A stretch of 64,000 nt of DNA from Rhodanobacter sp. A1T4. GTDB taxonomy: Bacteria; Pseudomonadota; Gammaproteobacteria; Xanthomonadales; Rhodanobacteraceae. The stretch lies in NCBI RefSeq assembly GCF_014207185.1, contig NZ_JACHCP010000008.1, forward strand, positions 62,001 through 126,000, written 5' to 3'. The notes beneath the pieces are model-generated. The model made no database searches and was not told the origin of the DNA. It saw nothing but the letters and a program-made list of their open reading frames with translations. Made by a program: the position numbers and the translations under genes. Positions 11,331 through 37,388 of this stretch are shown here, one piece after another. Each line of letters begins with the position of its first letter. Within the stretch, counting starts at the first letter, position 1.

Positions 11331-11356
11331 TTAAAACGTAACTTTAGAACGTAACT
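11331..11356 (-). repeat. 13-bp tandem duplication carrying the TonB-receptor stop codon
   Basis: Two adjacent 13-bp copies (11331-11343 and 11344-11356) differ by one base. Read on the minus strand, each is AGTTACGTTNTAA, which encodes the terminal V-T-F of the receptor followed by a stop. The second copy therefore leaves an untranslated remnant of the same C-terminal codons behind the real stop. It looks like a small replication-slippage event. Confidence 0.7.
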
Positions 11357-14226: not shown

Positions 14227-14503
14227 GATGTCCTCACTTGAATGGGTAAATGGGTGGCTGGCTTGGGGGACGCATGCCTGGATCGGTAGATTCGGCGACA
14301 CGGTTTTGCATCCATGCATGCTCCGCCGTAACGCCCCGAATTTCGGAACGACGGGCATGAAGATTTCACGTTTGCGAGCAGGCGCAGCGAGTGATCGCCA
14401 GCGATGCTCTGTCATGACGTGGACGATGAGTTGCGCATGAGCGCAGAACCTCGCCGATTTTCATTTAGCCGTCTTTATGACGACCTAAAAGATTCTTCGA
14501 TCG

Positions 14504-16462
14504 CTAGCCGTCAGCGGTCGATATATCCTGGAATTTCCAGTAAACCGCATAGCGCTCAGCATGAATTTCATTCAGCGGCGCAACGGTCAAAGTGCCTTGA
14601 CGGGTTGTTGCTTCGAAACGCAGCTCACTCGTCGAGAGCGCGCGTAGCCAGTTGATATCCTGCGTCGCGCTGGCAAAAATCTCCGGCGCAGGCTGTGCCT
14701 TCGGTTCGGGATTCGGCGCAGCGTCATAGCCGCAGTACTGCATTGCGTGCGTCAGCCCTGAACTGCCTAGTCGCGCAGCGAGTACCAGCGGTCCGTAAAG
14801 CACCGCGCGCTGATCGTCATCACCGGGCAACGCTTCGCTATGAAGTTGCATCGGTAAATCGAGCTCGATGCGATCGCCGTTTCGCCATTCGCGGCGCAAA
14901 GTCAGATAGCTTCCCGCTGAGGCGAACACGCCAAGCGTTTCGCCGTTCACGCGCACGGCGGCATCCGGCCCGATCCATTCGGGGATACGCAAATGGATCG
15001 CGCGATGTGTCGGCGCTGTCAGGCCCAGCGTAAAGCGCGTCAATGGCTCGCGCGGAAATATCGTTTCCTGGCGCAGCGTCAGCTGCTCCTGCGGCCAGCT
15101 CAATTCGGAGGCGATGAACAGGTTGACGTAAAGATCCTGCCCCTCGTGAAAATAGATGCTGTCATTGAAGCGGGCAAACTCTTCGGCACCGGAACCGGTG
15201 CAACACCAAAAGGAATCGGTGGGCGAGTTGTAGAACTTGTTGGCGCCGGGCTGCAACGGGTAGTAGTAAAGCTTCATGCCATCGGCATCTTGTGTGCCAA
15301 GGCGCGCGTTGTAGAGCGTGCGCTCGTAGTAGTCGAAGGCGCGCGGGTCACCGTTCCAGGCGTAGACGTGACGAGTGAGTTTGAGCAGGTTGTAGGCCAC
15401 ACAGCACTCGGCGGCGTAGAGGCCAAGCTGGCCTTTCAGATCACCGGGGCCGGTTTTCCAGAACTCATCGTTGCTGGAGCCACCGGTGGCATAGCGGCGC
15501 TGGGTGGTTACCGTCTCCCAAAAGAATTCCACTATGCGTCGATAGCGTGGGTCGCCGGTCAATTCGTAGCGGCGCGCGGCGCCGATGATCTTGGGAATCT
15601 GGGTGTTGCTGTGCAGGCCCTGTAGCTCATCGCGATGTGCCGCCAGCGGATCAAAAAGCGAGGCTTGATCGAAACGATGCGCGGCATCCATGTAGCGGCC
15701 GTTGCCGGTAATCGCATACAACTCATACATCGAGTCGTTCATGCCGCCGTACTCGGTTTTCAGGATGTGCGCGAGTTCGGCATCGGAGAAGCCGTTGAGC
15801 CAGCGCACTGTCCAATTTCCGATGCCGGTGGCCACGGCCAGCGCCTGCTGATTGCCGGCGTGCCGGTACATATCGAGCATGCCGGCCTGAATCTTGTGAA
15901 TGGTGTAGAACGGTGCCCAGACTTTCTGGCCGCTGCTGAGGCGATCGAAAAAGCTTTCCGGGAAGGCGCTCAAATAACCGTTGGGCTGTTGGCACGCTGC
16001 CAGCAGCGAAACCAGCTCGTCGCCCCGCGCCTTGAGTACTTTATCGCCCTGGCTGGCGTAGGCGAGCGCTACCGCGGACAGATAGTGGCCGCCGCTGAAG
16101 TGGCCGCGCAATTCACAATCGGGTTTTTCCCAGCCGCCCAGCGCTATCGCACTGGAGGGCCGTCCGGCTTGTAGCTGAAAGCTTCGGGCGAGCCTGTCGA
16201 CGGGCAGACTGTGCAGATAGTGCAAATTGACTGCTGCTGCGGTGGCGAAATCCCCGTCAAGTAGCTGCACCTGGTTCAACGGAAAGTCGTACATGCTTTG
16301 CACGGGCTTTTCGCGTGATGCTACTGCTGTCGCTGCGACGGTGGTGTTGGGGTCGGCTACATCGGGAGTGAAGGCGCGCGTCGCGGGTACGACCACAGCA
16401 GAGGCAAGCATGGCTGCGGCGCCTTTGATAAACCTCCTGCGTTGGTCGATGTTGTCGTGCAT
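14504..16462 (-). CDS. GH127 family beta-L-arabinofuranosidase (DUF1680), Tat-exported
   Basis: 652 residues from the ATG at 16462 (GGGGAG five bases upstream). The N-terminus MHDNIDQRRRFIKGAAAM is a Tat signal. The catalytic domain has GGWEKPDCELRGHFSGGHYL, the zinc/catalytic Glu-Cys pair AAECCVAYN near residue 351 and the nucleophile region SFWCCTGSG near residue 418, as in HypBA1-type enzymes. Such enzymes release beta-linked L-arabinofuranose from hydroxyproline-linked arabino-oligosaccharides of extensins, using a cysteine nucleophile. The gene carries the shared 18-bp operator 127 bases upstream, which ties it to the hydroxyproline operon 14 kb away. Family call is strong; exact substrate is inferred. 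Confidence 0.9.
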   Translation of the reverse strand: MHDNIDQRRRFIKGAAAMLASAVVVPATRAFTPDVADPNTTVAATAVASREKPVQSMYDFPLNQVQLLDGDFATAAAVNLHYLHSLPVDRLARSFQLQAGRPSSAIALGGWEKPDCELRGHFSGGHYLSAVALAYASQGDKVLKARGDELVSLLAACQQPNGYLSAFPESFFDRLSSGQKVWAPFYTIHKIQAGMLDMYRHAGNQQALAVATGIGNWTVRWLNGFSDAELAHILKTEYGGMNDSMYELYAITGNGRYMDAAHRFDQASLFDPLAAHRDELQGLHSNTQIPKIIGAARRYELTGDPRYRRIVEFFWETVTTQRRYATGGSSNDEFWKTGPGDLKGQLGLYAAECCVAYNLLKLTRHVYAWNGDPRAFDYYERTLYNARLGTQDADGMKLYYYPLQPGANKFYNSPTDSFWCCTGSGAEEFARFNDSIYFHEGQDLYVNLFIASELSWPQEQLTLRQETIFPREPLTRFTLGLTAPTHRAIHLRIPEWIGPDAAVRVNGETLGVFASAGSYLTLRREWRNGDRIELDLPMQLHSEALPGDDDQRAVLYGPLVLAARLGSSGLTHAMQYCGYDAAPNPEPKAQPAPEIFASATQDINWLRALSTSELRFEATTRQGTLTVAPLNEIHAERYAVYWKFQDISTADG

Positions 16463-16535: not shown

Positions 16536-16587
16536 TTCATCGTGCCGTCACACAGGCGTCGCGTCTTGTGTCATTTGGGGGAGTTGA

Positions 16588-16606
16588 ATGCGGAATTCCG
16601 CATAGT
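16588..16606. promoter_or_regulatory. Shared operator, copy A (GH127 promoter)
   Basis: The site TGCGGAATTCCGCATAGT (16589-16606) lies within a perfect 16-bp palindrome, ATGCGGAATTCCGCAT (16588-16603). It matches the copies at 23065 and 30466 at 16 of 18 positions common to all three. It lies 127 bases upstream of the GH127 start and is in the same orientation as the others relative to the minus-strand genes. Confidence 0.7.
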
Positions 16607-16856
16607 TTTCGCGAGCGGCTGTAACGATACGCTGGAGATACGTATTTCTTGCTGGCAGAAATCGTGCGGGATATGGCCGTCTGCGATGATCGTGGCGTCT
16701 GTATGTTGTGGTCATCGAAACGAGTTATCGCCAACCCGATAGGCTTGGCGACGATCTTGCTGGGAGACACGCTGTGCGGTTTTCTGAAATCGCACAATGG
16801 GAGCCGCACACTGGTGCCGCATCAGGCATGGCGACCAGGCATGGAGAGGTGATGTG

Positions 16857-19226
16857 TCAGACGAAGCGGGCGCGCACCTCGATGCGCTGACCGGGCTTGC
16901 CGCGTATGCGAATGGCGGCATCTCGGTGTTCGGCGGCATCTGAGGCAACGCCATCCAGATGCACTTCGATCAGACGTTTGCCAGCGGGCACGCGCAAGCT
17001 CAGCCACGTGTCTTTGGGGCTGCTGCCATCAGGCAGGGTCAATTCGCCTTCGATGACATTGCTACCCGTGCTCTGTAACCGGAAGCTGACTTTGCCCCAG
17101 CGCGTTGGCGCGCGTTCAATGCCGACAGATTTGCCACTGGCCATCCACGTGCGGGGAATCGCTCGGCCCAGATAGAGTGTTTCTCCAGCGCTGTCGTCGA
17201 ACACCATGGTCCAGCGCAGCAACAACGGAATGGTCATCTGCGCAGGTATGCAGAACAGCGGCATGCCGCCGCTGATGTCGGAGACTTCACCGGCGGTCCA
17301 GCTTCCCGGCGTATGCGCATGATGGCGATGGGCGTAGAGGAAAAGCAGGTATTCGTCGATACGCCCAAGCCGCAGCAGCTGCTGCGCGTAGCCGTAGGAA
17401 ATGAAACCCAGGATATCGCGACTGTCCTTGTCGACTGGGCCAATATTTGCGACGACACCGATACTGGTGGCGCCGTGGCCGCGCATGCAGTCGATCACCA
17501 GATGAGCGAGATCATCGGGTAGCACGTCGGCTTGCAGCAACTCGGCGTAGGCCCGGTGCGGCCATTGCTGTTCACTGGGATTCTCCTTGGCCAGCGATTC
17601 GCGGAAGGTCAGTTTTACCCCGGGTAGCGGCCCAACATAGGGCGGCTTCAGATCATGGCGAATATTGGCGCGCAGCGTACGTACGGTCTGTTCGCGCAAG
17701 CTGTCGGCGCGCCGCTTCCATTCGTGCGCGTCCTTCGTCTCGCCAGCAACAAAGGTCGGCCACACGTTTGCCAGATCGTGCAGTCCACGCGCAGCCATGG
17801 CACTGTTGGCGTAGTACGGTTTCCACCAAAGCGTGGGATCCGGAAACAGGCAGGCATCGGATTCGTTCCAGCCGTGGATCAGGCCGTAGCCGGGATCATT
17901 GCTGGCAAGCTTCAGACTCTCGTCGTGAAGCTCCAGCAGAATCTGCGCAGTGGCTTCGATCTTCGCCCTGTGCTTCAGAATCAGTGCACGATCACCGGTG
18001 TAGTTGAAATAGCGCGCCAGCAGCGACAGCGTCAGGCCAAATTGCGCGGTTTCAGCGCCGCGCATGTTGATCATGCCGTCAGCCTGCACGAAATCGCTGA
18101 AATATTCGTCCAGTACGGCGGCAGCCTGTTCGAAGCGACCCCATTCGAGGTTGGCGTAGAGCGAGCTGGTGAAGGTGTCCTGGAAGCCGTCGTATTCGTT
18201 GCCGTAGTAGTCGCGATCCACCGCACCGTATTTCGGATACGTGCCGTCGGGGCGCACCACCAGTTCGCGGGCAAATGCGTAATGCGCCATATCGTTCCAG
18301 CCTGGCGTGGGTATGGAAGCGACGCTGGTTCCGCTCAGTTCGGCCTGCCAGTAATCGTGAAAACGCAGCAGGGCCGCATAGAACGTTGCCGGTTCCGGTG
18401 GCAGTCGCCGTGGTGGATAGCTGGGATAGCTGTGGCCATAGGAGACTTTGCTGATCGCACCGTGTTCGACCAATGCAGTGCGATGCCAGGTCTGCATCAC
18501 GAATCGATCAGTAGCATCGACATCGGCAAACACCAATACGTCGTACCAGCGCCCCTCGTCGATCGGCACCACTTTATGCACGGCCGGCATCCAACCACCC
18601 AGCAGGCCTTCGCGGCGGCGGGCGACGCGTTTTGGATCGTGCAGTTCGGCGAATATCTGGTCGGAGTGATAAGTGCGGGTACTCCCGGAGGTATACACCG
18701 GCATCGTGTCCGCGCATTGTCGCGTGCCAATGAAGGTCGTCCAGGGCAGGCGCCCGTAATAGTTCTCGGGGTTGAGCAGCGAGGCGACCGGTGGTGCAGC
18801 CAGGCGTACCTGCGTCTCGTCGGGCTCGCCGTGCGCCAGCAGGTAATCGGCCAGCAAGTCGGCTTCGGCCACCGCAATGTCAGCCAGCTTCATGCCGAAG
18901 TAGGGCACGCCGTCGGCGGCAAAGGACGGTTCCGTGCGCTTGCCCAGGACGCAGGCCACATCACCACAGACCAGCGTCAGCTCGCCATCGGGATGACTGA
19001 GGTTCTCGAATACCTGCCAGTCAAGATTGGCCTGCTTGAATGAGCCCAATGCATGGTGGCCGCTCGTTGAGATACTGGCCAAAGGGATACGTATCGGTGA
19101 CGGCACGGGTTTGCCAGCGGCTGCCGGCAGCGGCGATGCGTCGGCGATCTGGTCGCGCCCGGAAACGCAAAGTCCGACCGCTGCACCGGTCGCAGCGAGG
19201 CCCTGGAGAAAGCGTCGACGATCCAT
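16857..19226 (-). CDS. Tat-exported putative glycosidase with (alpha/alpha)6-like region, possibly GH121-related
   Basis: 789 residues from the ATG at 19226. The N-terminus MDRRRFLQGLAATGAAVGLC is a Tat signal. The central part (about 280-640) is helix-rich, with YDGFQDTFTSSLYANLEWG, MRGAETAQFGLTLSLLARYF and GLIHGWNESDACLFPDP, the look of an (alpha/alpha)6 glycosidase barrel. The C-terminal 120 residues are beta-rich. I cannot name the family with certainty. The position next to GH127 and the hydroxyproline genes suggests a beta-L-arabinobiosidase-like (GH121-type) or other arabinan-releasing enzyme; that is inference. A partial copy of the shared operator lies about 25 bases before the gene. 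Confidence 0.72.
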   Translation of the reverse strand: MDRRRFLQGLAATGAAVGLCVSGRDQIADASPLPAAAGKPVPSPIRIPLASISTSGHHALGSFKQANLDWQVFENLSHPDGELTLVCGDVACVLGKRTEPSFAADGVPYFGMKLADIAVAEADLLADYLLAHGEPDETQVRLAAPPVASLLNPENYYGRLPWTTFIGTRQCADTMPVYTSGSTRTYHSDQIFAELHDPKRVARRREGLLGGWMPAVHKVVPIDEGRWYDVLVFADVDATDRFVMQTWHRTALVEHGAISKVSYGHSYPSYPPRRLPPEPATFYAALLRFHDYWQAELSGTSVASIPTPGWNDMAHYAFARELVVRPDGTYPKYGAVDRDYYGNEYDGFQDTFTSSLYANLEWGRFEQAAAVLDEYFSDFVQADGMINMRGAETAQFGLTLSLLARYFNYTGDRALILKHRAKIEATAQILLELHDESLKLASNDPGYGLIHGWNESDACLFPDPTLWWKPYYANSAMAARGLHDLANVWPTFVAGETKDAHEWKRRADSLREQTVRTLRANIRHDLKPPYVGPLPGVKLTFRESLAKENPSEQQWPHRAYAELLQADVLPDDLAHLVIDCMRGHGATSIGVVANIGPVDKDSRDILGFISYGYAQQLLRLGRIDEYLLFLYAHRHHAHTPGSWTAGEVSDISGGMPLFCIPAQMTIPLLLRWTMVFDDSAGETLYLGRAIPRTWMASGKSVGIERAPTRWGKVSFRLQSTGSNVIEGELTLPDGSSPKDTWLSLRVPAGKRLIEVHLDGVASDAAEHRDAAIRIRGKPGQRIEVRARFV

Positions 19227-19244
19227 GGGTTCTCAATACTCCAC

Positions 19245-19264
19245 CGAATGATGCGGAATCATTA
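19245..19264. promoter_or_regulatory. Partial copy B of the shared operator
   Basis: The half-site ATGCGGAAT matches copies A, C and D, but the right half differs and reads CATTACG. The sequence makes its own inverted repeat, AATGAT-N5-ATCATT. It lies immediately upstream of the 789-residue glycosidase gene. It may be a degenerate or weaker binding site, or chance. Confidence 0.3.
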
Positions 19265-19272
19265 CGTTCTTC

Positions 19273-19347
19273 AAAAAAAGGGGCCCGCGCATAGGAGAGT
19301 TCGCGTCTCCAAGAGGGGAGGTTGGAGGTATGAAAATGCGCGGTCCC
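19273..19347 (-). terminator. Predicted terminator of the DUF885-permease operon
   Basis: On the minus strand, GGGACCGCGCAT (19347-19336) pairs with ATGCGCGGGCCC (19292-19281) with one mismatch, followed by a C and seven T residues (19279-19273). The 43-base loop may itself fold. It lies about 180 bases after the permease stop and before the next promoter, so it would separate the two transcription units. Confidence 0.55.
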
Positions 19348-19529
19348 TAAATTAATGATGCAACGCGAATGAGCGTTGCATCTTGTCGAATTCATTCGCG
19401 GGGCATGCGGATTTGTGCATAGGCCATGGTCATGGCATGTTGCCATGGACGGCCAGATGCTGAGATCCGCGGCATCGCCAGTCGGTGGCTCCGGCAGCAA
19501 ACGCAGAAAGCAGGTGTCTGGCGGATTTG

Positions 19530-21101
19530 CTAATCGTCGTCTTCATTGCCCAGATTCAGCTGGGAAGATGGCAGGCCGGTATAGGCACCCCAGTAATAAA
19601 TGAGCAGGGCAATGAGGGTGACCATCAGGGAGTCCCATGGGTGTCCGATGATGCCTTTTCCACCAAACGTGCCGAGATAAGAGGCGACGATGATCAAGGC
19701 ATAGAAAGCGATCAGCCACAGCGACGAATACACCTCTCTGGCAAGCAGCTTGCGGTCGGCGCGCGCGCCGAGCTTGCAAAGAATATAAATGACGAACATG
19801 CCGAGCTGCAGTCCGAGCAGCCATGACACGGTAGTCCATCCCGACCAGTAGACAATCAACGCCGCCACGATAAATGACAGCGGACCCAGTACGGCGAAAC
19901 CATGCACGAGGAAAGGACGGGGCAGTCCGGGTGCGCTTCGACGCAGCGCGGCGACCGTGATTGGCGCGACCGCATAGCTCAGCACCAGCGCGGCGGAAAC
20001 GACACTGATCAGCGCTTCCCATGAGGGGAACGGCAGCGTCCAGAAAATGGACAGTCCAAAGGTCAGCCATAGCGCCGGCCGCGGTATACCCGACTGGCTG
20101 TCAATCCGCGTAAACACCTTGAAAAATGAGCCGCTGCGCGCCCAGCCATAGATAACGCGCGGCGTGGCATTCATGTAGATATTGCCGGTACCACTGGGCG
20201 AGATCATGGCATCGGACACTACCAGCACAGCCAGCCAGCCGATGCCCAGCGCCAGAGCGATATCGTGATACGGCAACGAGAATTCCGTGCCGATGGCGTT
20301 CCAGCCGTGTGCGAGCATAGCGACGGGAATGCTGCCGAGAAAAGCGATCTGCAGCAGCACATAAATGACGGTAGAAAGCACTACCGAGAGAATCAGAGCG
20401 ATGGGAATCGTGCGCTGCGGATCACGTACTTCGCTGGCCACCGAGATGATCGGCGTGAGTCCGAGGTAGGCGAAGATAATGCCGCCGGCGGAAACGGCGC
20501 CTTCCACACCGGCAAAGCCAAACGGTGCAAAGCCGTGCACCTGCATGTTGTGCGGCTGAAAGTGCGTCAGCAGCACAATGATCACCAGCAGCGGAACGAT
20601 GAATTTGAAGATGCTGATGATGTTGTTCGCCTTGGCGAACGTCTTCACGCTGAAGTAGTTGAGCAGAAAGAACACTGTCAGCAGGACCAACTGCACGATC
20701 CAGCCAAACGGGGTTGGATCGCCGGTGCCGCTCTTGCTCAGCGAGGGAAACCAGGCGGCGGCATACTGGCGACAAGCCACAGTCTCGATCGCGATCAAGC
20801 TGGAAAACGCGATCAGCGTGATGAATCCCATCAACGAACCAAGCAAAGCCCCGTGCGAATATCCCGGATAACGCACCACGCCTCCGGCACGAGGTAACGC
20901 AGCGCCAAGCTCGCAATAGACCAGGCCGAGCAGCAGCACGGCAGCTCCACCGATCAGCCAGGAGACGATGCCTGCCGGTCCGGCGATGGCGGAAACATGA
21001 CTGGCCGAAAACAGCCAGCCAGAACCGAAGATGGCGCCAAGGCCGATAAGGGTCAGGTCGATCAGGCTGAGTTGTTTCTGAAACTTTCCCTGGCGAGGCA
21101 T
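19530..21101 (-). CDS. APC-superfamily amino acid permease
   Basis: 523-residue inner-membrane protein with about 12 to 14 hydrophobic segments. The N-terminus SLIDLTLIGLGAIFGSGWLFSA and the following GPAGIVSWLIGG are the conserved helix 1-2 region of amino acid-polyamine-organocation transporters. It begins 33 bases after the DUF885 gene and probably shares its promoter and operator. In this context it most likely imports hydroxyproline, proline or short products made by the peptidases. The cargo cannot be read from the sequence. Confidence 0.88.
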   Translation of the reverse strand: MPRQGKFQKQLSLIDLTLIGLGAIFGSGWLFSASHVSAIAGPAGIVSWLIGGAAVLLLGLVYCELGAALPRAGGVVRYPGYSHGALLGSLMGFITLIAFSSLIAIETVACRQYAAAWFPSLSKSGTGDPTPFGWIVQLVLLTVFFLLNYFSVKTFAKANNIISIFKFIVPLLVIIVLLTHFQPHNMQVHGFAPFGFAGVEGAVSAGGIIFAYLGLTPIISVASEVRDPQRTIPIALILSVVLSTVIYVLLQIAFLGSIPVAMLAHGWNAIGTEFSLPYHDIALALGIGWLAVLVVSDAMISPSGTGNIYMNATPRVIYGWARSGSFFKVFTRIDSQSGIPRPALWLTFGLSIFWTLPFPSWEALISVVSAALVLSYAVAPITVAALRRSAPGLPRPFLVHGFAVLGPLSFIVAALIVYWSGWTTVSWLLGLQLGMFVIYILCKLGARADRKLLAREVYSSLWLIAFYALIIVASYLGTFGGKGIIGHPWDSLMVTLIALLIYYWGAYTGLPSSQLNLGNEDDD

Positions 21102-21134
21102 TAGGTCATCCGAGTGATGCGTGAGTGTTGCCGG

Positions 21135-22961
21135 TCAGGGCGATGGCGTGGCGTAAGGCGACTTGCCACCGCTGGCGATGAACTGGTCAATGCGTTCATT
21201 GAGTACCGGTAGCGGCACCGAGCCTGTGGACAACACAGCGTCGTGAAACGCGCGAATGTCGAACTTCTGGCCCAGCGCCTTTTCGGCACGAGTGCGGTCG
21301 TCGCGTATTGCCATTTCACCCAGGTAATAGGACAGCGCCTGCGCCGGCCAGGCGATGTAGCGGTCCACTTCGGTTTCGATCTCGTGGTCGGCCAGTGCGG
21401 TGTTCTCGCGCAGATAATCCTGCGCCTGCTGGCGTGTCCAGTGCAGGTGATGCAAGCCGGTATCGACGACCAGACGCGCCGCGCGCCACGCCTGATAGCT
21501 GAGATAGCCGAATTGTTCGTACGGCGTGTGATAGATGCCCATCTCCTGACCGAGGTATTCACAGTAAAGCGCCCAGCCTTCGCCATAGGCCGAGATATAG
21601 CTGTAGCGGCGAAAGTCGGGAAGACCGGTCGTTTCTGCAGCGAGTGGCATCTGCAGGGCATGACCTGGCGAGGACTCGTGGAGGGTCAGGGCGGGCAGCG
21701 AATACAGTGGGCGCGAGGGCAGGTTGTAGGTATTGACCAGATAGATGCCCGGACCACCGCGACCACCCGTGTAAATCGGTGCCAGATCGGGCGGTACCGG
21801 TTCGATCGCAAAGCGACGTCGCGGCAGCCGGCCGATATAGTCGCCGACCTTGCCGTCCACCTGCTTGGCAATCCACGCCGCGTCCTTCAGCAGTTCGTCC
21901 GGGGTCTTGGCATAGAACTGCGGATCGGTACGCAGGAAATGCAGGAAGTCGGGGAAGCTGTCCTTGAAGCCGGTCTGCTTGATCGTATCGAGCATCTGCT
22001 GATGGATGATGGCCATCTGCTGCAGACCCAGCGCGTGAATAGCGTCGGGACTCATGTCCAGCGTGGTGTATTCGAGGATTTGCGCCCGATAGAACGCCTT
22101 GCCGTCAGGTAGATCCTCGGCTGCGATATCGGTGCGTGCGTGCGGGATGTACTCCTTTTGCATGAAAGTAAGCAGCTTGACGTAGGCAGGAATCACCTGA
22201 CCGTTGATCGTTGCCAGTGCCTCGGCACGCAGCTTCGCCTGCTCGGCGGCGGGAATGGTCGCCGGCATCTGCTTGAAAGGAGTGTAGAAAAGATTCTTCT
22301 CGCCGGGTGCATCGACGATGTCGCTGATCGACTGGGTACGCCCCTGCAGAATGATTTTCGGCTGGCTGAATCCGCGTGCAAGGCCAAGTCGCATATTGGC
22401 GGTCTGCTCGCCGAAATAGCGCGGTATGTCACGCAGCTTGCCCAGATAATCCTCGTAGCTTTGCGCGTTGGTATAGGTGGCGCGCGCGGTAAAACCCAGA
22501 TCGCTCCAGAAGCCGGAGTCGCTGTTGAAAGGCATTTGCCAGGTCTTGAAGCGCTGGTCGCTCAACAGCACCTGGATCTGCTGCTTGTAGACGGCGTAAT
22601 TGACCTGATCCTCGTCGGACAGTTGGCTGCGGGGAATCGCGTCGAGCGTCTTGAGCACCGTGGCCCAGTAGTTTTCGCGCATCGCCTGCGTGGCGGCATC
22701 GACTTTGGGCAGGTGGCTTGCTGCCTGGGCCGGGCCGTCCTCGTCGTCGGCGCCGGCAAATTGCAGCTGACGCCATTGCCACTCGCTGGTATAGAGGTCA
22801 TGGAAGCGCTTGCCTGCATTGTCTGCCTTGCTGCCCGCATGAGCGGCATCGGACGACGGGCCGATCGGTTGCACCGATGTTTCCACCATCGCCGCCATGG
22901 CCATGTTGCTGCCCAACAGGAGCTGCAGACCGAGGCCGCAGCAGATCAATTTCAATGGCAT
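21135..22961 (-). CDS. DUF885 family putative exported metallopeptidase
   Basis: 608 residues from the ATG at 22961; the frame opens further upstream, but only this start gives the signal peptide MPLKLICCGLGLQLLLGSNMAMAA. The C-terminal half has the DUF885 hallmark LHESSPGHALQ (His and Glu near residues 424-425) followed by AYGEGWALYCEYLG about 30 residues later, resembling a gluzincin HExxx..E zinc site. The family is a probable metallopeptidase without defined specificity. It is the first gene of a two-gene unit with the APC permease. The shared operator lies 104 bases upstream, so cleavage of proline- or hydroxyproline-containing peptides is a reasonable inference. Confidence 0.85.
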   Translation of the reverse strand: MPLKLICCGLGLQLLLGSNMAMAAMVETSVQPIGPSSDAAHAGSKADNAGKRFHDLYTSEWQWRQLQFAGADDEDGPAQAASHLPKVDAATQAMRENYWATVLKTLDAIPRSQLSDEDQVNYAVYKQQIQVLLSDQRFKTWQMPFNSDSGFWSDLGFTARATYTNAQSYEDYLGKLRDIPRYFGEQTANMRLGLARGFSQPKIILQGRTQSISDIVDAPGEKNLFYTPFKQMPATIPAAEQAKLRAEALATINGQVIPAYVKLLTFMQKEYIPHARTDIAAEDLPDGKAFYRAQILEYTTLDMSPDAIHALGLQQMAIIHQQMLDTIKQTGFKDSFPDFLHFLRTDPQFYAKTPDELLKDAAWIAKQVDGKVGDYIGRLPRRRFAIEPVPPDLAPIYTGGRGGPGIYLVNTYNLPSRPLYSLPALTLHESSPGHALQMPLAAETTGLPDFRRYSYISAYGEGWALYCEYLGQEMGIYHTPYEQFGYLSYQAWRAARLVVDTGLHHLHWTRQQAQDYLRENTALADHEIETEVDRYIAWPAQALSYYLGEMAIRDDRTRAEKALGQKFDIRAFHDAVLSTGSVPLPVLNERIDQFIASGGKSPYATPSP

Positions 22962-23054
22962 CAAGGTATCCGGGCGGTCATGGCATGGGTATTCGGCGAT
23001 ATGGTGTGGCTTCCATGCTCGCCGCCAGGTGGCGCGGCGTATAGAAAACATTGT

Positions 23055-23082
23055 TTCCGCACTATGCGGAATTGAGCATAGT
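23055..23082. promoter_or_regulatory. Shared operator, copy C (DUF885-permease promoter)
   Basis: TGCGGAATTGAGCATAGT lies at 23065-23082. Two overlapping perfect inverted repeats are present: TTCCGCA-N3-TGCGGAA (23055-23071) and ACTATGC-N8-GCATAGT (23061-23082). The site lies in the 157-base gap between the M24 peptidase and DUF885 genes, giving DUF885-permease its own regulated promoter within an otherwise colinear gene row. Confidence 0.72.
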
Positions 23083-23118
23083 TGTGATGCCGAAGATAGC
23101 TGAAGGCTAGCTGCGTCA

Positions 23119-24345
23119 TCAGGGTGCTGCAAAGGGTTCGTCGATGGCGGGCGAAGGCGCGGTAAACCAGGACGCCCCGTTTTCGGTCACGTAAAAGTGA
23201 TCCTCCAGCCGGATGCCGAACTCCCCGGGTACCACGATCATCGGCTCGTCGCTGCAACACATGCCAGGCGCGAGCGCGGTCTCGTTGCCACGCACCAGAT
23301 ACGGTGTTTCGTGGATGCTGAGCCCGCAGCCATGGCCGGTTCGATGAGGTAGGCCGGGCAGCCGATAATCCGGACCCAGACCCGCTGCCTCGAGTACTCG
23401 TCGTGCGGCGGCGTCCACATCGCCGCAAGCCACGCCCGGCCTTACCGCTTCGAAGGCAGCGCGCTGCGCCGCCTGTTCCAGTGACCAGATCTGCGCCTGC
23501 GCCACACTGGGTCGGCCGAAGATGTAGGTGCGCGTGATGTCCGATTGATACCCTTCCACACTGCAGCCGGTGTCGATCAACACCAGCTCGTTTTCTTTCA
23601 GCCGCTGCTCGCCGGGTATGCCGTGCGGATAAGCGGTTGCGTGACCGAATTGCACGATGCAAAAGGTCGAGCCGCCATCGGCGCCCAGCGCACGGTGGGC
23701 GTGGTCGATGAATCGCCGGATTTCATCGGTGCTGATGTCTTCATGCATCAGCCCGGCGGTCAGTCGATGTACTTGCAAGGTCATCGCCGTGGCCTGGCTC
23801 ATCAGGGCCAGTTCGGCCGACGATTTTTGCATACGACAGCCATCCACGACCGGGCTGCCGTCAACCACCTCGCAACTGCCCACGACAGCACGCAACCGCT
23901 CGTAAATCAGAAACGATGCCGCGGGATCCAGCGCCAGACGGCGAATGCCATGCGCAGCGAGAAGGTCTGCCACACATTGCTGGGGATCGTCGTGCTCTTC
24001 CCATAGCCGTGTTTGTGCCGGGATCTTCAACGCGTGTCGCAGCGAGCCCTCCTCGAACGCGGGGCACAGTACAAACGGATCACCTTTCAGGGTCAGCAGC
24101 ATGGCAACCAGGCGTTCGCTTGCACCCCACGATATGCCAGTGAAGTAACGCAGTGAATGACCGGCGGTAATCAGCAACGCCTCATCACCACGCAGGCGCA
24201 TCAGTCGTCGCGCCTGCTCCAGGCGGTGCTGATATTCCTCTGCGCCAATGGGGGCCGCCCGCTGTGTCCAGGGGCTGAGTGTAGTCTCAGCCTCATCGAG
24301 GGTGAGGCCGCCAATCTGTCGACCTGCTGGCAGCACTGCGTTCAT
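23119..24345 (-). CDS. M24 family Xaa-Pro dipeptidase/aminopeptidase
   Basis: 408 residues with an N-terminal creatinase-type domain (about 1-170) and a C-terminal pita-bread metallopeptidase domain. Metal ligands are visible as two Asp in LIDTGCSVEGYQSDITRTY, His in TGHGCGLSIHETPYL, and Glu in MIVVPGEFGIRLEDHFYV. These enzymes cut the bond before proline, and here probably hydroxyproline. There is no signal peptide, so it acts in the cytoplasm on imported peptides. Its start overlaps the stop of the aldehyde dehydrogenase gene by ATGA, so it is the last gene of the hydroxyproline operon. Confidence 0.9.
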   Translation of the reverse strand: MNAVLPAGRQIGGLTLDEAETTLSPWTQRAAPIGAEEYQHRLEQARRLMRLRGDEALLITAGHSLRYFTGISWGASERLVAMLLTLKGDPFVLCPAFEEGSLRHALKIPAQTRLWEEHDDPQQCVADLLAAHGIRRLALDPAASFLIYERLRAVVGSCEVVDGSPVVDGCRMQKSSAELALMSQATAMTLQVHRLTAGLMHEDISTDEIRRFIDHAHRALGADGGSTFCIVQFGHATAYPHGIPGEQRLKENELVLIDTGCSVEGYQSDITRTYIFGRPSVAQAQIWSLEQAAQRAAFEAVRPGVACGDVDAAARRVLEAAGLGPDYRLPGLPHRTGHGCGLSIHETPYLVRGNETALAPGMCCSDEPMIVVPGEFGIRLEDHFYVTENGASWFTAPSPAIDEPFAAP

Positions 24346-25937
24346 GCGTGGTCACCGATATCGCGCTCGGTCCAGCGACCATCGACCCGGCGCTGAACAC
24401 TTGTCACGTTGCGATCGCGCAGTTCGATCGGCAGCAGCGTATCGGGGACGTTGTCGTAGCTGTGCAGGGCGGTGAAACGATGAATCGCCGCCGGCATGCC
24501 CACCGAGGTAAAGCCCGGGTGGCTGGTACTGGGGTACGGACCACCGTGATTCATCGCGGGACTGACCGCTACGCCGGTCGGCATCTTGTTGGCAATCAAC
24601 CGACCGACCTTGCCTCGCAGAACAGGCGCGATGGCTGACCAGGCAAGGTCATCACTGCCGTTCGCGGCGCGGTAGAGCGTACCTGTGAGGTTACCTTCAA
24701 AAGCGCCGGCGACGCTCGCCATGACACTGCTGTCAGCAGCACGTACGAGCAGGCTGACCGGCCCAAAAGCCTCGGTCTGCAATACATCGGCGTGCGCGAT
24801 AAATACGTTTGCATCAACACTGAGCAGAGTCGGTTGATGACGATAACCATCGCCATCGCCGATGTTTCCACCGGCCAGCAGTTCGGCGCCTGCCGTCAGC
24901 AGCACAGCAACCGTGCGACTGAGTGACTCTTGCACACCGCGGGAAAACAACGGCCTGGGCGTGGCGGTGGCGAAGTGCGTCGTTGCAGCGGCAACAAACG
25001 CATCGCCATTGCCCTGTGCCGGCACCACCACGACGCCGGGGTTGGTGCAGAACTGGCCGCTGCCCATCACGCATGAGGCGAAGAATTCCTGCGCCAGTGC
25101 TTCGCCGCGTTCGGCCAGCACGCCGGGTAGCAGGAACACCGGATTGATGCTGGAAAGCTCGGCATAGACCGGTATCCCGGCCTTGTCAGCCGCAGCTTTC
25201 AGCGCCAATCCACCAGCGCGGCTGCCGGTAAAGCCGATCGCGCCCAGTCGTGCATCGCCGGCCAGTGTCAATCCGAGTGCGTTGTCGAAGTGATAGAGCA
25301 TTTGCACGGCTGCTGCAGGCAGACCGCTATCGATCAGCGCCTGGTACGCCAGCTGGGCCAGCCGCTGACTTGTTGCTGGATGGGACGGATGTGCCTTGGC
25401 GATTACCGGATTGCGTGCGGCGATGGCCGATGCGAAATCGCTGCCTGCGATGGCGTTGAAGGCGAACGGAAAATTGTTGGGGCCGAAAATCAGCACGGGT
25501 TTGCCGAGCGGCGCGCGGTGCGCACGCAGCCCGGCCTGGGTATCGATAACCGGATCTGTCCAACCGTAGTGATGTGCTGCGCTGGCCGCCTGACGAAGCT
25601 GGCCGCTGGTGCGCGGCAATTCCACCGAGCGCAGTCGTGGTTCGACCGGCAGGGCGGTTTCGGCATGTGCCAATGCGACCAGCGTGTCGGCGTCGGCGTC
25701 GATCGCTGCCGCGTACGCATCGAGAAAATTGGCAATGCGGTCAGCGGGCGACGCGGCCAGTTCATCCGCAACGGCCTGCGCTGATGCGATGGTCGATTCG
25801 ATATCTTCCGCACCGCTGACGGGAAAGCTCGGCCCGATGGCCGTGGCGCGCGTCGGATCTTCGGCCCGGAAACTGCCCTGCGGATCGAGCGATGCGCGCC
25901 AGCAACCGCCGACCAGCACATTTTCCGATGCACTCAT
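24342..25937 (-). CDS. 2,5-dioxovalerate (alpha-ketoglutarate semialdehyde) dehydrogenase
   Basis: 531 residues from the ATG at 25937, one base after the stop of the upstream gene. Aldehyde dehydrogenase fold: the catalytic Cys is in MGSGQFCTNPGVVVV, the general-base Glu region is AELSSINPVF, and the cofactor motif is GFTGSRAGG. The unusual QFCTNPG and AELSSINP signatures are those of the KGSADH class. It oxidises alpha-ketoglutarate semialdehyde to 2-oxoglutarate, the last step of hydroxyproline breakdown. It lies directly after the deaminase gene whose product is this aldehyde, which supports the call. Confidence 0.9.
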   Translation of the reverse strand: MSASENVLVGGCWRASLDPQGSFRAEDPTRATAIGPSFPVSGAEDIESTIASAQAVADELAASPADRIANFLDAYAAAIDADADTLVALAHAETALPVEPRLRSVELPRTSGQLRQAASAAHHYGWTDPVIDTQAGLRAHRAPLGKPVLIFGPNNFPFAFNAIAGSDFASAIAARNPVIAKAHPSHPATSQRLAQLAYQALIDSGLPAAAVQMLYHFDNALGLTLAGDARLGAIGFTGSRAGGLALKAAADKAGIPVYAELSSINPVFLLPGVLAERGEALAQEFFASCVMGSGQFCTNPGVVVVPAQGNGDAFVAAATTHFATATPRPLFSRGVQESLSRTVAVLLTAGAELLAGGNIGDGDGYRHQPTLLSVDANVFIAHADVLQTEAFGPVSLLVRAADSSVMASVAGAFEGNLTGTLYRAANGSDDLAWSAIAPVLRGKVGRLIANKMPTGVAVSPAMNHGGPYPSTSHPGFTSVGMPAAIHRFTALHSYDNVPDTLLPIELRDRNVTSVQRRVDGRWTERDIGDHA

Positions 25938-25938
25938 T

Positions 25939-26841
25939 TCAGAGGCTCGGCTTGGTGGCAATGGCGTGATCGATCACCTTGAGTGCCGCTTCGCGCTCGG
26001 CACCGGCGACGGGCAGGCGCGGTGCGCGCACCGTTTCGCTGCCGGTTCCGGTTTTCTCCTGCACCAGTTTGATCAGCTGTACAAAAGTCGGCACCGTGTC
26101 CAGACGCAGCAGCGGCAAAAACCACGCATATAGCGACTCGGCGGCCTTTGCACCGCCGCTTTGGGCCAGTTCGAACAGCTTCACCGACTCAAAGGGATAC
26201 GCATTGACCAGGCCTGCGACCCAGCCGACCGCGCCCATGCTGACGCCTTCGACGATGGCGTCGTCCATACCGACCAGCAACTGTAGCCGATCGCCGAGCA
26301 GCGAACGGATCGCGGCAAAGCGGCGGACGTCGCCGGAGGATTCCTTCACTGCCTGCAGGTTCGGAAATTCAGCAGCCAGTTCGGCCATTTGCGCCGGCGT
26401 GAAGTCGGTCTTGTAGGCGACCGGATTGTTGTAAAGCATGCAGGGCAGATCGGTAGCGCCGATCACGGCTTTTACGTGCGCACCCATCTCGCGCCAATCG
26501 GTGGAGTACACGTACGGCGGCAGCACCATCAGTCCGCCGCAGCCGAGGGCCTTGGCTTCCTTGGCCAACTTGACGGCTTCGTCGGTGGACAGCGAAGCGA
26601 TGCCGGGAATCACCGGCGCGCGGCCAGTGAGTACCTTGACCAGCGTTTTCAGGATAGCCAGCTTCTCTTCAAAGCTCAGCGTGGCTGCCTCGCCCAGCGA
26701 GCCCAGTGGCACAATGCCTTTACAGCCTGCGTCGATCAGCTGTCGGGCATGGCTGGCCAGGAACGCGTGGTCGATTGTGCCGTCAGCGTGGAAGGGGGTG
26801 GTGATGGCAGGCAGTACGCCGTGCCAGAGGGAATTGCTCAT
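25939..26841 (-). CDS. lhpC: DapA-family deaminase, predicted 1-pyrroline-4-hydroxy-2-carboxylate deaminase
   Basis: 300 residues from the ATG at 26841, with GAGGA upstream. The frame extends to 27126, but this start matches the family. It belongs to the DHDPS/NAL class I aldolase-like superfamily, with PLGSLGEAATLS near residue 45, the catalytic Tyr in LPPYVYSTD and the Schiff-base Lys in LQAVKESSGD. In a hydroxyproline operon this family removes ammonia from Pyr4H2C to give alpha-ketoglutarate semialdehyde. It lies between the dehydrogenase subunits and the semialdehyde dehydrogenase, in pathway order. Confidence 0.88.
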   Translation of the reverse strand: MSNSLWHGVLPAITTPFHADGTIDHAFLASHARQLIDAGCKGIVPLGSLGEAATLSFEEKLAILKTLVKVLTGRAPVIPGIASLSTDEAVKLAKEAKALGCGGLMVLPPYVYSTDWREMGAHVKAVIGATDLPCMLYNNPVAYKTDFTPAQMAELAAEFPNLQAVKESSGDVRRFAAIRSLLGDRLQLLVGMDDAIVEGVSMGAVGWVAGLVNAYPFESVKLFELAQSGGAKAAESLYAWFLPLLRLDTVPTFVQLIKLVQEKTGTGSETVRAPRLPVAGAEREAALKVIDHAIATKPSL

Positions 26842-26851
26842 GGGTAAATCC

Positions 26852-28135
26852 TCAAGGTTTATTGATGGAAGAAAGATTTGTGCCGGCCAAGGTAGACAGC
26901 CGGGCAGGGAAAAGCGGCGGTCGTTGTCCGCTGCGTGGAAAACGTCCGAGCTCAGCCAGCGCACTGCCACAGATACGGCCTTGGCAGGCGCCCATGCCGC
27001 AGCGGGTGGCGAGCTTGGCGCTGCGCGCATCCATATAGCCATCCAAAGCAGAGAGTGAAACGTCCTCGCAACGACAGACAAGAGTGTCCGGTTGTGCCAG
27101 GGCATGCACTCTTGGATCGAGTGCAAAGCACTGGTTCAGGGCGTCGGCAAAATGGCGGGCGTGCTGTCGTGACTGAAGCAGGCGATCGGCATCGGCCGTC
27201 TTGCCAGCTGCCGCATGCCCGGCGATGGCGCCCTCGATGCGTGCCGTGTCGCGTCCACCGATGCCGCACAACTCACCGGCCGCATAAATGCCATCGACGC
27301 TGGTGCGTTGGTATCGATCGGTATCGACATAGGCATGGGCACCTTGCAGTTGCAGGGTGCAGCCGAGCGACTGAGCGAGTTCTACATTCGCCAGCAAGCC
27401 GTAGCCGACCGCGAGCTGATCGCAGGCAATATGTTCGATTCCGCGTGGGCCATCCACATCGACAGCATGCAGTTCGGTTTCGCCGTGAGCGCGACGTACG
27501 ACGCTGCCACAGCGATAGGGCACACCGGCAAGCTGGGCTCGTAAACCCATGGCTTGAACTGCCTTGGCCGGCCAGCGCCACAGGCTTCGTGCAAAGCGCT
27601 GGATATTTTCAGTGGAGGATTGTTCGTAGATGCCGAGTACGTGGGCGCCATGCCGTTTTGCCGTCGCCGCGGCCGCCAGCAAAAGCGGGCCGCTGCCGGC
27701 GATTACGACGCGCCGTCCGGCCAGCGGCCAGCCTTGCTTGGCCAGCGCCTGCAATCCACCGGCACCGGTTATTCCAGGCAGCGTCCAGCCGGGAAACGGC
27801 AACAACAATTCACGTGCGCCAGTCGCCAAAACGAGAGTCTGGTAGTGCAATCGCCGCGCACGTCGGGGATCTTCCACCAGCAAACCGCCATCTTCGACGG
27901 TCACCACGCGCGTCTGCGCCAGCCAATCGATCGCAGGATGATCGAGCGTCCTGCCGATGCTTCGCCGAGCCAGCGCAGGCGAAGCATGCTGCACATCCTG
28001 ACGCCAGACCTGGCCACCGGCGGTCATCTGTTCATCGATCAGGCCCACGCGTGCACCATGACTGGCAGCAGCATGCGCGGCAGCAAGACCCGCGGGTCCG
28101 GCACCGACGACCAGCACGTCATAGCGATCAGTCAT
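26852..28135 (-). CDS. D-hydroxyproline dehydrogenase, NAD(P)/FAD-binding subunit with BFD-like [2Fe-2S] domain
   Basis: 427 residues from the ATG at 28135. The N-terminus YDVLVVGAGPAGLAAAHAA is an FAD-binding Rossmann motif; a second dinucleotide motif is VVIAGSGPLLLAAAATA near residue 150. The C-terminal 75 residues carry a BFD-type cysteine set (LVCRCEDVSL and RCGMGACQGRICG). It corresponds to the HcnB-like alpha subunit of the three-subunit D-hydroxyproline dehydrogenase. It overlaps the small iron-sulfur subunit gene by 8 bases and should form a complex with that protein and the FAD subunit. Confidence 0.88.
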   Translation of the reverse strand: MTDRYDVLVVGAGPAGLAAAHAAASHGARVGLIDEQMTAGGQVWRQDVQHASPALARRSIGRTLDHPAIDWLAQTRVVTVEDGGLLVEDPRRARRLHYQTLVLATGARELLLPFPGWTLPGITGAGGLQALAKQGWPLAGRRVVIAGSGPLLLAAAATAKRHGAHVLGIYEQSSTENIQRFARSLWRWPAKAVQAMGLRAQLAGVPYRCGSVVRRAHGETELHAVDVDGPRGIEHIACDQLAVGYGLLANVELAQSLGCTLQLQGAHAYVDTDRYQRTSVDGIYAAGELCGIGGRDTARIEGAIAGHAAAGKTADADRLLQSRQHARHFADALNQCFALDPRVHALAQPDTLVCRCEDVSLSALDGYMDARSAKLATRCGMGACQGRICGSALAELGRFPRSGQRPPLFPARLSTLAGTNLSSINKP

Positions 28136-28376
28136 CGCACGATACCTGCATGCCTTCGCGTACCGGCACCATGCATGCACGCCGCTGGCCAATGCCATCA
28201 ATCGCGACGCGACATTCGAAGCACACGCCCATGCCGCAGAACGCAGCGCGCGGTTGTCCCGTCGTCGATCGGCGAAAAATCAACGAGTGTTGAGCGATGG
28301 CCGCGGCCACGCTGGTGCCAGCTCGTGCCTCGACCGTACAGCCGTTGATCTGGAGACGTATCAGCGGCGCATTCAT
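28128..28376 (-). CDS. D-hydroxyproline dehydrogenase, small [2Fe-2S] subunit
   Basis: 82-residue ferredoxin-fold protein (Fer2_4, HcnA-like). Cysteines are arranged as FCGMGVCFECR near residue 47 with a fourth in RRACMVPV, the pattern for a [2Fe-2S] cluster. It starts at ATG 28376, overlapping the stop of the FAD subunit gene by ATGA, and its end overlaps the next gene by 8 bases. It should pass electrons between the flavin subunits of the membrane-linked dehydrogenase. Confidence 0.88.
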   Translation of the reverse strand: MNAPLIRLQINGCTVEARAGTSVAAAIAQHSLIFRRSTTGQPRAAFCGMGVCFECRVAIDGIGQRRACMVPVREGMQVSCDD

Positions 28377-29470
28377 GCAGCCACCCGCATCGGGTCATAC
28401 GGACGTGGGTCGATCGCTGTGGCGCGTCCGAGCAGCTGATCGATCAGTATGCGCGCGCTTCCCAGCGAAGTGGTGACACCGAGGCCTTCGTGGCCGGCTG
28501 CCACCCATACGTTGGCGTGTTGCGGAGCTCTTCCCAGGTAAGGCAGGCCGTCCACACTGACTGGACGAAAACCGGTCCAGATGCGAATGGCATCAAGTTC
28601 GCTCAAACCGGGAAGGAACTGGAGAGTGCGCGCCAGCATGCGTCGCACCATCGTCATCGAGATATCCGCGGTCTCGCTGCCGTACTCACGGGATGATCCA
28701 ATAAGAATCTGCCCGGTCGGCCGTGGTTGCACATTGAAGGCCACGCTGCTGTCGTCGCTGCCGTGCGCGCTGTCGGCATAACCCAGTTCAAGCAGCTGGT
28801 GATGCACGAGACCAGGATGGCGATCGGTGATCACCAAGTGACCCTTGCGGCTGCGCATCGGCAACTGCGGCAGTAGCTGCGGCAGTGCGCAGCCGGTGGC
28901 TATCAACACGTTGCCGCTGAGCTGTGTGTTATCGCTCAGACGCACGCCGCCGCTGTTCAATTGATGAGCGCGCTGGCGGTAAAGTTGGGCGCCGCGTGCC
29001 ATCGCCTGACCGATGAGGTATTGCGCTACACCGGGTGGATACACCACCGCTTCGCCCGGCACCCGCATGCCGCCCGCGAGGCCCGCGGCGAGCGCAGGCT
29101 CCAGCCGATAGAGTTGCTCGGCGTCGACTTGTTCGGCGTGCACACCCGCAGCGGCCAGGCGTGCCAGTTTGTCCGGAATGCGCGCGTAGTCAGCCTGATT
29201 ACTGGCAATCCACAACGTACCGCAGCGGCTGTACTCGGCCTGTGGCAGATCGACGAAGGCTTCCCATAAACCCAGTGAATAATGTGCCAGTGCCAGTTCG
29301 GCCGGGTCGTCGTCCATCGCGACCAGATGGCCCATGGCGGCGGCGGTTGCACCACCACCGATCGGACCCGGTTCAACGATCGCCACGCGCAGGCCTTCGG
29401 CGCTGGCGTAGTCGGCACAGGCAGCGCCGACGATACCTGCACCGACGATGATCAGGTCATGACTTTTCAC
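28373..29470 (-). CDS. D-hydroxyproline dehydrogenase, catalytic FAD subunit (DAO family)
   Basis: 365 residues. The N-terminus [23 protein letters not shown] is the FAD-binding motif of D-amino acid oxidase-type enzymes; near the C-terminus [19 protein letters not shown] and [20 protein letters not shown] complete the family pattern. It oxidises cis-4-hydroxy-D-proline, the epimerase product, to the pyrroline carboxylate. Its start overlaps the epimerase stop by ATGA, and its end overlaps the iron-sulfur gene in the same way, so the subunits are coupled. Confidence 0.9.
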
Positions 29471-30408
29471 GTAGCGCCGATGCCCCAGACCAGCGGATCG
29501 GCCTCGTCGAGCAGCAGCTGGCCTTGTGCGGTGACGTGCGCACTGCCGGTAATCCTTGGCAGCACCCCCTGTGAGCCTGGTGTGTACTGCGCTTCAAAGA
29601 CACTGCCCAGGATGCCGGCTTGACGCCAGACGCGCCCCGGTTCCAGCTTGCCGTCGGCGGCCAGGCAAGCCACTTTGGCGCTGGTGCCGGTGCCGCATGG
29701 CGAACGGTCGTAAGCCATGCCCGGGCACAGCACAAAATTGCTTGCATCGGCATCGTCCTGTGTGGACGCCGCATTGATCTCGATGTGGTCGATCTCGGCG
29801 CCGAGCGCACCGGTGATACCGGCTTGCTCGAGTGCGTCGCGAACCGCTTCGGTATAGGTGGTCAATCCACGCTGATGGGTCAGCGTCAATGGCAGCGGCG
29901 TGTCATTGGTAATGAAAAACCAGTTACCGCCCCAGGCGACGTCGCCGCGGACAATGCCATAACCGGGTACGTCCAGTGCGACGTCCTTGGCATGACGATA
30001 GCTTTCGACATTGTCGACAGCCACGCGCCCATCCGGATACAGCTCAACGCCCACCATGCCTACCGGTGTTTCGAGAAGATGCTTTCCGGGAGTGATGCGC
30101 TCCAGATGACGAAGTGTCTGGATCAGACCGATCGTACCGTGGCCGCACATGCCCAAGTAGCCGACGTTATTGAAAAAGATGACGCCGGCACAGGCGCTGG
30201 AATCCTGGGGAGGCAGCAACAAGGCGCCCACCATGGTGTCCGAACCGCGGGGTTCGCAAGCGATCGCCTGGCGCCACAGATCATAGTTTTCGCGAAACAG
30301 GCTGCGTCGCTCGGCCAAAGTGCCGTTGCCAAGATCAGGAAAGCCGGCAATCACTACACGAGTGGGTTCGCCGCCGGTGTGCGAGTCAATGAATTCGATG
30401 GTTTGCAT
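29467..30408 (-). CDS. lhpA: 4-hydroxyproline 2-epimerase (proline racemase family)
   Basis: 313 residues. Both catalytic cysteines are visible: MCGHGTIG near residue 88 and [10 protein letters not shown] near residue 236. Together they mark the two-Cys 4-hydroxyproline epimerases rather than the Cys/Thr dehydratases. It converts trans-4-hydroxy-L-proline to cis-4-hydroxy-D-proline, the first step of the pathway. It is the first gene of the minus-strand operon that continues through the dehydrogenase, deaminase, aldehyde dehydrogenase and M24 peptidase genes. The operator copy D lies 58 bases upstream. Confidence 0.93.
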
Positions 30409-30465
30409 GTCGCCATGCTCGCCTTCGGGAGCATAGGGCGTCTAGAAAGCCTTGTTGGTATTGAG

Positions 30466-30483
30466 TGCGGAATTCAGCATAGT
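30466..30483. promoter_or_regulatory. Shared operator, copy D (hydroxyproline operon promoter)
   Basis: TGCGGAATTCAGCATAGT is identical to copies A and C except at the two variable positions. It lies between the epimerase gene and the divergent PAS-AraC gene, so it could control both. Read on the minus strand it contains TATGCT, which resembles a -10 box, with CTGACC about 19 bases upstream. If so, the site overlaps the promoter and suits a repressor better than an activator. Confidence 0.72.
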
Positions 30484-36760: not shown

Positions 36761-36773
36761 GACACATCTCCGA

Positions 36774-37181: not shown

Positions 37182-37202
37182 GGGAATCTCCTGGTGTGTT
37201 GG

Positions 37203-37385: not shown

Positions 37386-37388
37386 GGC

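Follow-up and report, generated by a model that had tools for sequence, protein, structure and literature searches.

What links an arabinofuranosidase to the breakdown of hydroxyproline, and which regulator would connect them, is the question raised by a 64,000-nucleotide stretch of the Rhodanobacter sp. A1T4 genome (contig NZ_JACHCP010000008.1, forward-strand positions 62,001 to 126,000; hereafter the window). A preliminary description of the window had reported a near-identical 18-bp palindromic site in three promoters, those of a β-L-arabinofuranosidase gene with a GH127-type catalytic domain, of a DUF885-permease unit, and of the hydroxyproline operon headed by the 4-hydroxyproline epimerase gene hypE, and had proposed that they form a local regulon. 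Our results lead us to consider it likely that these sites (S1, S2, and S3) and a weaker fourth one (S4) are operators of the PAS-AraC protein encoded divergently from hypE, and that this protein is an LhpR-type activator with a regulon widened to the degradation of hydroxyproline-rich glycoproteins.

Four sites and a long promoter pattern

The three reported copies are real: TGCGGAATTNNGCATAGT matches the plus strand without mismatch at 16589, 23065, and 30466, with no further exact match in the 5.08-Mb genome, and each copy is intergenic when the likely start codons are used (16462 for the GH127-type gene, 22961 for DUF885, and 30408 for hypE; the 23065 site lies between the M24 gene and DUF885). 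They are indeed palindromic, with the correction that each is a 22-bp imperfect palindrome whose outer arms (ACTATGC/GCATAGT) are perfect at S2 only. That the window holds no other copy was not quite right, as S4, a degenerate copy, precedes the gene of a 789-amino-acid protein with a twin-arginine translocation (Tat) signal.

At up to three mismatches, TGCGGAATTNNGCATAGT has 7 matches in the window versus a shuffle mean of 0.49, and 39 genome-wide versus 18 for the backward control. The bare 18-mer is unspecific, being present at up to two mismatches in 38 of 45 genomes of the genus, with backward-control matches in 11 of those. Five inspected two-mismatch places outside the cluster sit in long open frames, and since S2 and S3 do so as well, this location tells little. 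Specificity resides instead in a longer promoter pattern, in which the box A[CT]TRTGCN(G/C)AWTTCCGCAY is followed by C[TA]AGACG at +38 and by a -10-like nAnnAT at +62/63. With up to three mismatches this long pattern finds S1 to S3 and nothing else in the A1T4 genome (control, 0), so that the many dispersed copies that would mark a repeat element were not found. A relaxed long form matches S1, S2, and S3 at zero mismatches, S4 at two, and seven other places at three (backward control, nine at up to three), making S4 the fourth-best match of the genome. In 2960 random 380-position stretches drawn from the loci examined, no match to the reversed pattern had 5 or fewer mismatches.

Column counts were made on the hypE promoters of 61 related loci and the window (n = 62), numbered from the first base of A(C/T)TRTGC; L082, L120, and L122 were removed beforehand, and L124 to L139 lay outside this alignment and were read separately (L and G numbers are our handles for loci and genomes). 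TGC at 4 to 6 is present in all 62, TTC at 11 to 13 in 61 to 62, and GCA at 15 to 17 in 60 to 62, while the 3' part retains CA at 29 and 30 (51 and 55), CTAG at 38 to 41 (59 to 61), and C at 43 (60). Boxed arabinofuranosidase-type promoters, which come from seven genera, have CAAGACG at exactly 38 to 44 in 18/18 and GGCA(C/G)GATGAAA from 60 (14 to 18 of 18 per column, except the C/G column), and five of six readable boxed promoters of the DUF885 type have CTA(T/G)(A/C)C plus GAGCAT at 62 to 67.

All four window promoters carry a -35-like C[TA]AGA[CT]G or CTATACG at a fixed register after the box and a -10-like nAnnAT 17 to 18 bp further on (Table 1). Judged from this register, the spacing is compatible with a weak sigma-70 promoter whose -35 element follows the box; the box would then occupy the usual position for an activator of the AraC kind. 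An arrangement with a class II activator centered near -41, and C[TA]AGAC as the -10, was dropped because nAnnAT was found 17 to 18 bp further, also where the start codon lies elsewhere. The predicted transcript start falls at about the hypE start codon (30408-30439), and the hypE mRNA may therefore be leaderless.

Conservation upstream of orthologous genes

The box was sought in 233 genomes of the family at up to two mismatches and in 45 genomes of the genus at up to three. It was present in 62/233 (backward control, 0) and 13/45 (control, 1), respectively, and in at least 87 of 398 genomes of an order draw that overlaps the family sample (control, 1). Before hypE, the best match lies at -73 to -77 in 60 of 66 scanned loci, among them two degenerate ones (L088 and L117), and at -136 in L096. 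GH127-type orthologues have the box in register at up to three mismatches in 24 of 26 genomes, with G121 at four. For the complete orthologues of the Tat protein, a box at up to four mismatches was found at -179 to -202 in 9/17, the window included. The proposal of a local regulon uniting an arabinofuranosidase with hydroxyproline catabolism is supported by these conserved sites before both types of gene, and the expectation that sites are kept upstream of orthologues held in several genera for S1 and S3.

In stretches selected for the box, the first gene behind it is hypE, a DUF885 gene, a GH127-type gene, an M24 prolidase gene outside the hyp operon, or the Tat protein gene; other genes found there encode M1-family peptidases (L196 and L200), a TonB receptor (L202), and a BNR-repeat protein of unclear relation (L198). 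In a second family of the order, 12 matching stretches contain 14 boxes, four before Tat-protein orthologues (61 to 66% identity), seven before relatives of the TonB receptor (four at 54 to 56% and three at 28 to 40%), and three unassigned. The TonB receptor at 1693-5027 of L202, with its own three-mismatch box, lies directly behind a PAS-AraC gene. GH127-type promoters (CAATAAGCACAAGACG or CAAATACGACAAGACG) also occur in genomes in which no GH127-type orthologue was found (L216 at 16610, L227 at 5263, and G131 at C25:214025), perhaps as remnants after gene loss, and in L217 such a promoter box stands before a short GH127-like fragment.

The box accompanies the PAS-AraC regulator

Orthologues of the PAS-AraC protein were defined by at least 55% identity, or as fragments of higher identity, and 13 genomes with a relative of 34 to 46% were counted as being without it. 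Its candidacy as the regulator, raised in the preliminary description, gains support from the family sample, where the box occurs in 60 of the 70 genomes that have the protein versus 2 of the 163 that do not (Fisher p ~2e-42, relatedness ignored), and in 59/64 versus 1/12 when genomes bearing hypE are compared. The box core, at up to one mismatch, lies within 260 bp upstream of the regulator gene and always points away from it in 87 of 93 loci, a number that includes some genomes under both a named and an unnamed record.

The association extends to regulator genes that do not adjoin hypE. G115, G117, G122, G200, and G201 carry the PAS-AraC gene at a distance from hypE, and G113 carries a second copy so placed; G203 and G204 (87% complete) have the protein, and no hypE was found in them. 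In these eight genomes the core stands, at up to one mismatch, 69 to 138 bp upstream of such genes. Four loci from four genomes of one genus (L192, L195, L197, and L201, including the second copy in G113) place the regulator away from hypE and near a gene that we take to be ftsH-like, with the box at 137 to 138 bp, similarly to the hypE loci of related genomes. L238 holds the second PAS-AraC copy of G117, 54 to 55% identical and without a box.

Relation to LhpR and other hydroxyproline systems

The best Pseudomonas match of the regulator, about 48% identical, is an AraC protein from a P. aeruginosa cluster whose annotations include lhpB, lhpD, a 4-hydroxyproline epimerase, and an aconitase-family protein. 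From its place in this cluster and from the PAS domain with which PA1261 (LhpR) is listed in the accessible part of PMC8694187, we infer that this protein is LhpR. The epimerase gene of the cluster (L250) has CTATGCCGCTTTCGTCAT upstream with CAAG at the same spacing, at two mismatches from the Burkholderiales form and in this one locus only. In Paraburkholderia, Caballeronia, and Burkholderia, YTRTGCNGAWWTCGTCAY-N19-CAAGNC precedes hypE at up to one mismatch in 10 of 11 scanned loci (L125 at two), and in nine of the 11 another box, on the opposite strand, precedes the divergent DHDPS-type gene. The reversed control matched once in 16 loci, at four mismatches. The variant box was absent from the Myxococcus, Archangium, and Acidobacteriales loci examined. 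A DQSAF versus DHSAF difference in the helix-turn-helix (HTH) domain of the regulator fits the change in the right half-site in no more than two or three lineages, which makes a match between these residues and the half-site a lead.

The system described here resembles the LhpR regulon, in which an AraC-type activator serves the lhp genes, in its PAS and AraC regulator and in the same kind of catabolic genes, including the epimerase. It differs in the right half of the box, CCGCA here versus CGTCA in the Pseudomonas cluster, and in the addition of the arabinofuranosidase, DUF885, Tat protein, and TonB receptor to the set. Hydroxyproline genes of other bacteria are likewise controlled by HypR (PMC5343134 and PMC6608401, in their accessible parts), and a HypR regulon of Streptomyces also has a putative collagenase gene; the HypR proteins of Proteobacteria and Streptomyces are, however, GntR-type repressors with another motif, whereas the candidate here belongs to the AraC family. 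HypBA1, HypBA2, and HypAA of Bifidobacterium and Xanthomonas euvesicatoria remove β-L-arabinofuranose from hydroxyproline-rich glycoproteins (PMC6085000), as is predicted for the present system. There, the GH121-GH43 operon responds to HrpX, and the accessible sections of that source describe no link to hydroxyproline catabolism; GH146 structures are the nearer ones for the present enzyme. The same source states that xehypBA1 increases in infected plants despite having no plant-inducible-promoter (PIP) box. In the literature within reach of our search, which leaves out most subscription papers, we found no title or abstract describing this operator or a joint regulon for arabinofuranosidase and hydroxyproline catabolism in these bacteria.

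Gene products and their predicted shared function

The closest solved structures to the GH127-type enzyme are 5opj/6yqh and 8k7x/8k7y. We take 5opj to be a GH146 enzyme and 8k7x/8k7y to be Bll3HypBA1, likewise a GH146 enzyme. Its zinc-site motifs, Glu-x-Cys and Cys-Cys (E-x-C and WCC), are kept in alignment with 5opj and 8k7y; these residues serve as zinc ligands (PMC10850190). Both this enzyme and the 789-amino-acid protein start with Tat signals of the RRRF type, and the start of the DUF885 protein resembles a signal peptide. The 789-amino-acid protein is 61 to 85% identical to 15 orthologues and, searched as a single sequence or as a 16-member profile, had no match in Pfam, NCBIfam, or the PDB apart from the Tat signal and a single TPR match at chance level, which suggests an undescribed exported family within the putative regulon. 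As β-L-arabinofuranose on hydroxyproline is typical of extensins (PMC6085000, in part), the combination of a receptor, an exported sugar-stripping enzyme, an exported DUF885 protein, a permease, a prolidase, and the hydroxyproline pathway would point to feeding on hydroxyproline-rich glycoproteins of plants, extensin for instance, with hydroxyproline as the presumed inducer.

Table 1. Candidate operator sites and genes of the putative regulon in the window
Feature	Position	Strand	Sequence or basis
S1, box before GH127/GH146-type gene	16585..16606	-	Gene strand ACTATGCGGAATTCCGCATTCA; -35-like CAAGACG 16562-16568; -10-like CACGAT 16539-16544
S4, weaker box before 789-amino-acid Tat protein	19402..19423	-	Gene strand CCTATGCACAAATCCGCATGCC; -35-like CAAGATG 19379-19385; -10-like CATCAT
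S2, box before DUF885-permease	23061..23082	-	Gene strand ACTATGCTCAATTCCGCATAGT; -35-like CTATACG 23038-23044; -10-like GAGCAT 23015-23020
S3, box before hypE	30462..30483	-	Gene strand ACTATGCTGAATTCCGCACTCA; -35-like CTAGACG 30439-30445; -10-like GAGCAT 30415-30420
PAS-AraC regulator, 248 amino acids, LhpR-like, proposed activator for S1-S4	30620..31366	+	Pfam PAS_4 and HTH_18
4-Hydroxyproline epimerase, hypE	29467..30408	-	NCBIfam NF010577, 444.8 bits vs cut-off 442; Pfam Pro_racemase
FAD-dependent oxidoreductase, probable D-hydroxyproline dehydrogenase subunit	28373..29470	-	Pfam DAO; operon position
FAD/NAD(P) oxidoreductase, probable D-hydroxyproline dehydrogenase subunit	26852..28201	-	Pfam Pyr_redox_2
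DHDPS-family protein, presumably pyrroline-4-hydroxy-2-carboxylate deaminase	25939..27126	-	Pfam DHDPS; listed start probably too early
Aldehyde dehydrogenase, presumably for alpha-ketoglutaric semialdehyde	24342..25961	-	Pfam Aldedh
M24 Xaa-Pro dipeptidase-like protein	23119..24345	-	Own box in three loci lying away from the hyp operon (L193, L194, L199)
DUF885 protein, signal-peptide-like N terminus	21135..22961	-	Pfam DUF885, E=3e-151
Amino acid permease, likely in one unit with DUF885	19530..21101	-	Pfam AA_permease_2
789-amino-acid Tat-signal protein, family not known	16857..19226	-	Signal and profile searches
β-L-Arabinofuranosidase, GH127-type catalytic domain, nearer GH146 structures; Tat-like N terminus	14504..16462	-	PF07944, E=1.7e-112
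TonB-dependent receptor, probably in one unit with the arabinofuranosidase	11344..14415	-	Other-family relatives carry their own box

Elsewhere in the window, 36428-38817 holds a series of small minus-strand frames, including one for a DUF2589 protein, and the box is absent there.

Evidence against the PAS-AraC reading and rival explanations

Several observations weigh against PAS-AraC as the regulator of all four sites. AraC proteins usually bind direct repeats, and a search by eye for direct-repeat half-sites in the box promoters revealed no clear repeat. S2 was expected to be widely conserved, an idea that was dropped when it emerged that, of 42 DUF885 loci, just three (the window together with L060 and L063, all close relatives) have a box ahead of the gene; here, the view that the sites are kept upstream of orthologues did not stand. 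Another three boxes stand before DUF885-type genes with no more than 35 to 37% identity. At most other loci, DUF885 lies downstream of the M24 gene on the same strand and may be transcribed from the hyp promoter. The box is also absent at the corresponding position from 8 of the 17 complete Tat-protein orthologues.

The pairing with the regulator is likewise imperfect. Ten PAS-AraC genomes lack a box at two mismatches, five of them having one at three, and no good core lies upstream of the unlinked regulator genes of G206 (core at two mismatches), G102, and G156 or of the second copy in G117. Where unlinked copies do have the box, it may have been carried along with the gene. Conversely, G027 (97% complete) has hypE and a two-mismatch box and no PAS-AraC was found in it; G014 (C17:151777; L043 and L284) has the arabinofuranosidase and a box whose 3' element is displaced by 1 bp, and neither hypE nor PAS-AraC was found; and G047 (L203) has a two-mismatch match, probably by chance, with neither gene. 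Relatives of the regulator in Myxococcus and Archangium (about 41%) are without such a box, and the genomes counted are related, which means that the counts are not independent.

It could be argued from the palindromic core, and from the boxes that G027 and G014 retain without PAS-AraC, that another, unlinked dimeric helix-turn-helix regulator binds the palindrome and that the link to PAS-AraC merely reflects common ancestry. We think this unlikely, since eight genomes have the box a short way upstream of a PAS-AraC gene that does not adjoin hypE and the pairing of regulator and box recurs, with a changed right half, in Burkholderiales and in the Pseudomonas lhp cluster. The preliminary description had suggested that the site may overlap -10 boxes and serve a repressor, which would block the promoters. 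The gene strand does hold TATGCT or TATGCG within the box, and HypR repressors of hydroxyproline genes exist in other bacteria. The conserved -35- and -10-like elements, however, lie 3' of the box in a fixed register at every one of the four window promoters, the regulator that co-occurs with the box belongs to the AraC family, and no GntR-family protein is among the 20 window frames scanned with Pfam, the rest of the genome not having been searched; repression from such a site is therefore not supported and appears very unlikely. That the sites are functionless copies, arising from recent duplication of a promoter or from a small repeat element, might be suspected from three near-identical sites on one strand within 14 kb, with S2 confined to close relatives, but the spacers differ among S1, S2, S3, and S4, the genome has no further copies, and the conservation of S1, S3, and S4 in separate genera already contradicts the idea for those three, so that we regard it as extremely improbable.

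Proposed mechanism and implications

We propose that the PAS domain of PAS-AraC would sense free hydroxyproline, or a first metabolite of it, upon which the protein would bind the box and probably also C[TA]AGACG, which overlaps the weak -35, and would recruit RNA polymerase at four promoters, those of the hypE operon, the DUF885-permease unit, the 789-amino-acid Tat protein, and the GH127/GH146-TonB receptor unit. Glycosylated hydroxyproline peptides would be taken up across the outer membrane, stripped of β-L-arabinofuranose, and cleaved; Xaa-Hyp would then be imported and split, and the hydroxyproline converted to 2-oxoglutarate.

More tentatively, it is possible that one hydroxyproline sensor runs a full program for plant hydroxyproline-rich glycoproteins in soil- and plant-associated Lysobacterales, that the 789-amino-acid protein represents a new exported enzyme family and DUF885 a peptidase acting on hydroxyproline-rich peptides, and that the operator is a two-part AraC site, with one subunit on the pseudo-palindrome and the next over the -35. 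Sugar-stripping enzymes, peptidases, an outer-membrane receptor, and a catabolic pathway would thereby be tied to one predicted signal, hydroxyproline, and functions can be proposed for DUF885 and for an exported family without a Pfam or PDB match. The motif may be used to find the same program in other Lysobacterales, including plant pathogens, and PAS-AraC would be a candidate regulator for the use of cell-wall glycoproteins outside the HrpX circuit.

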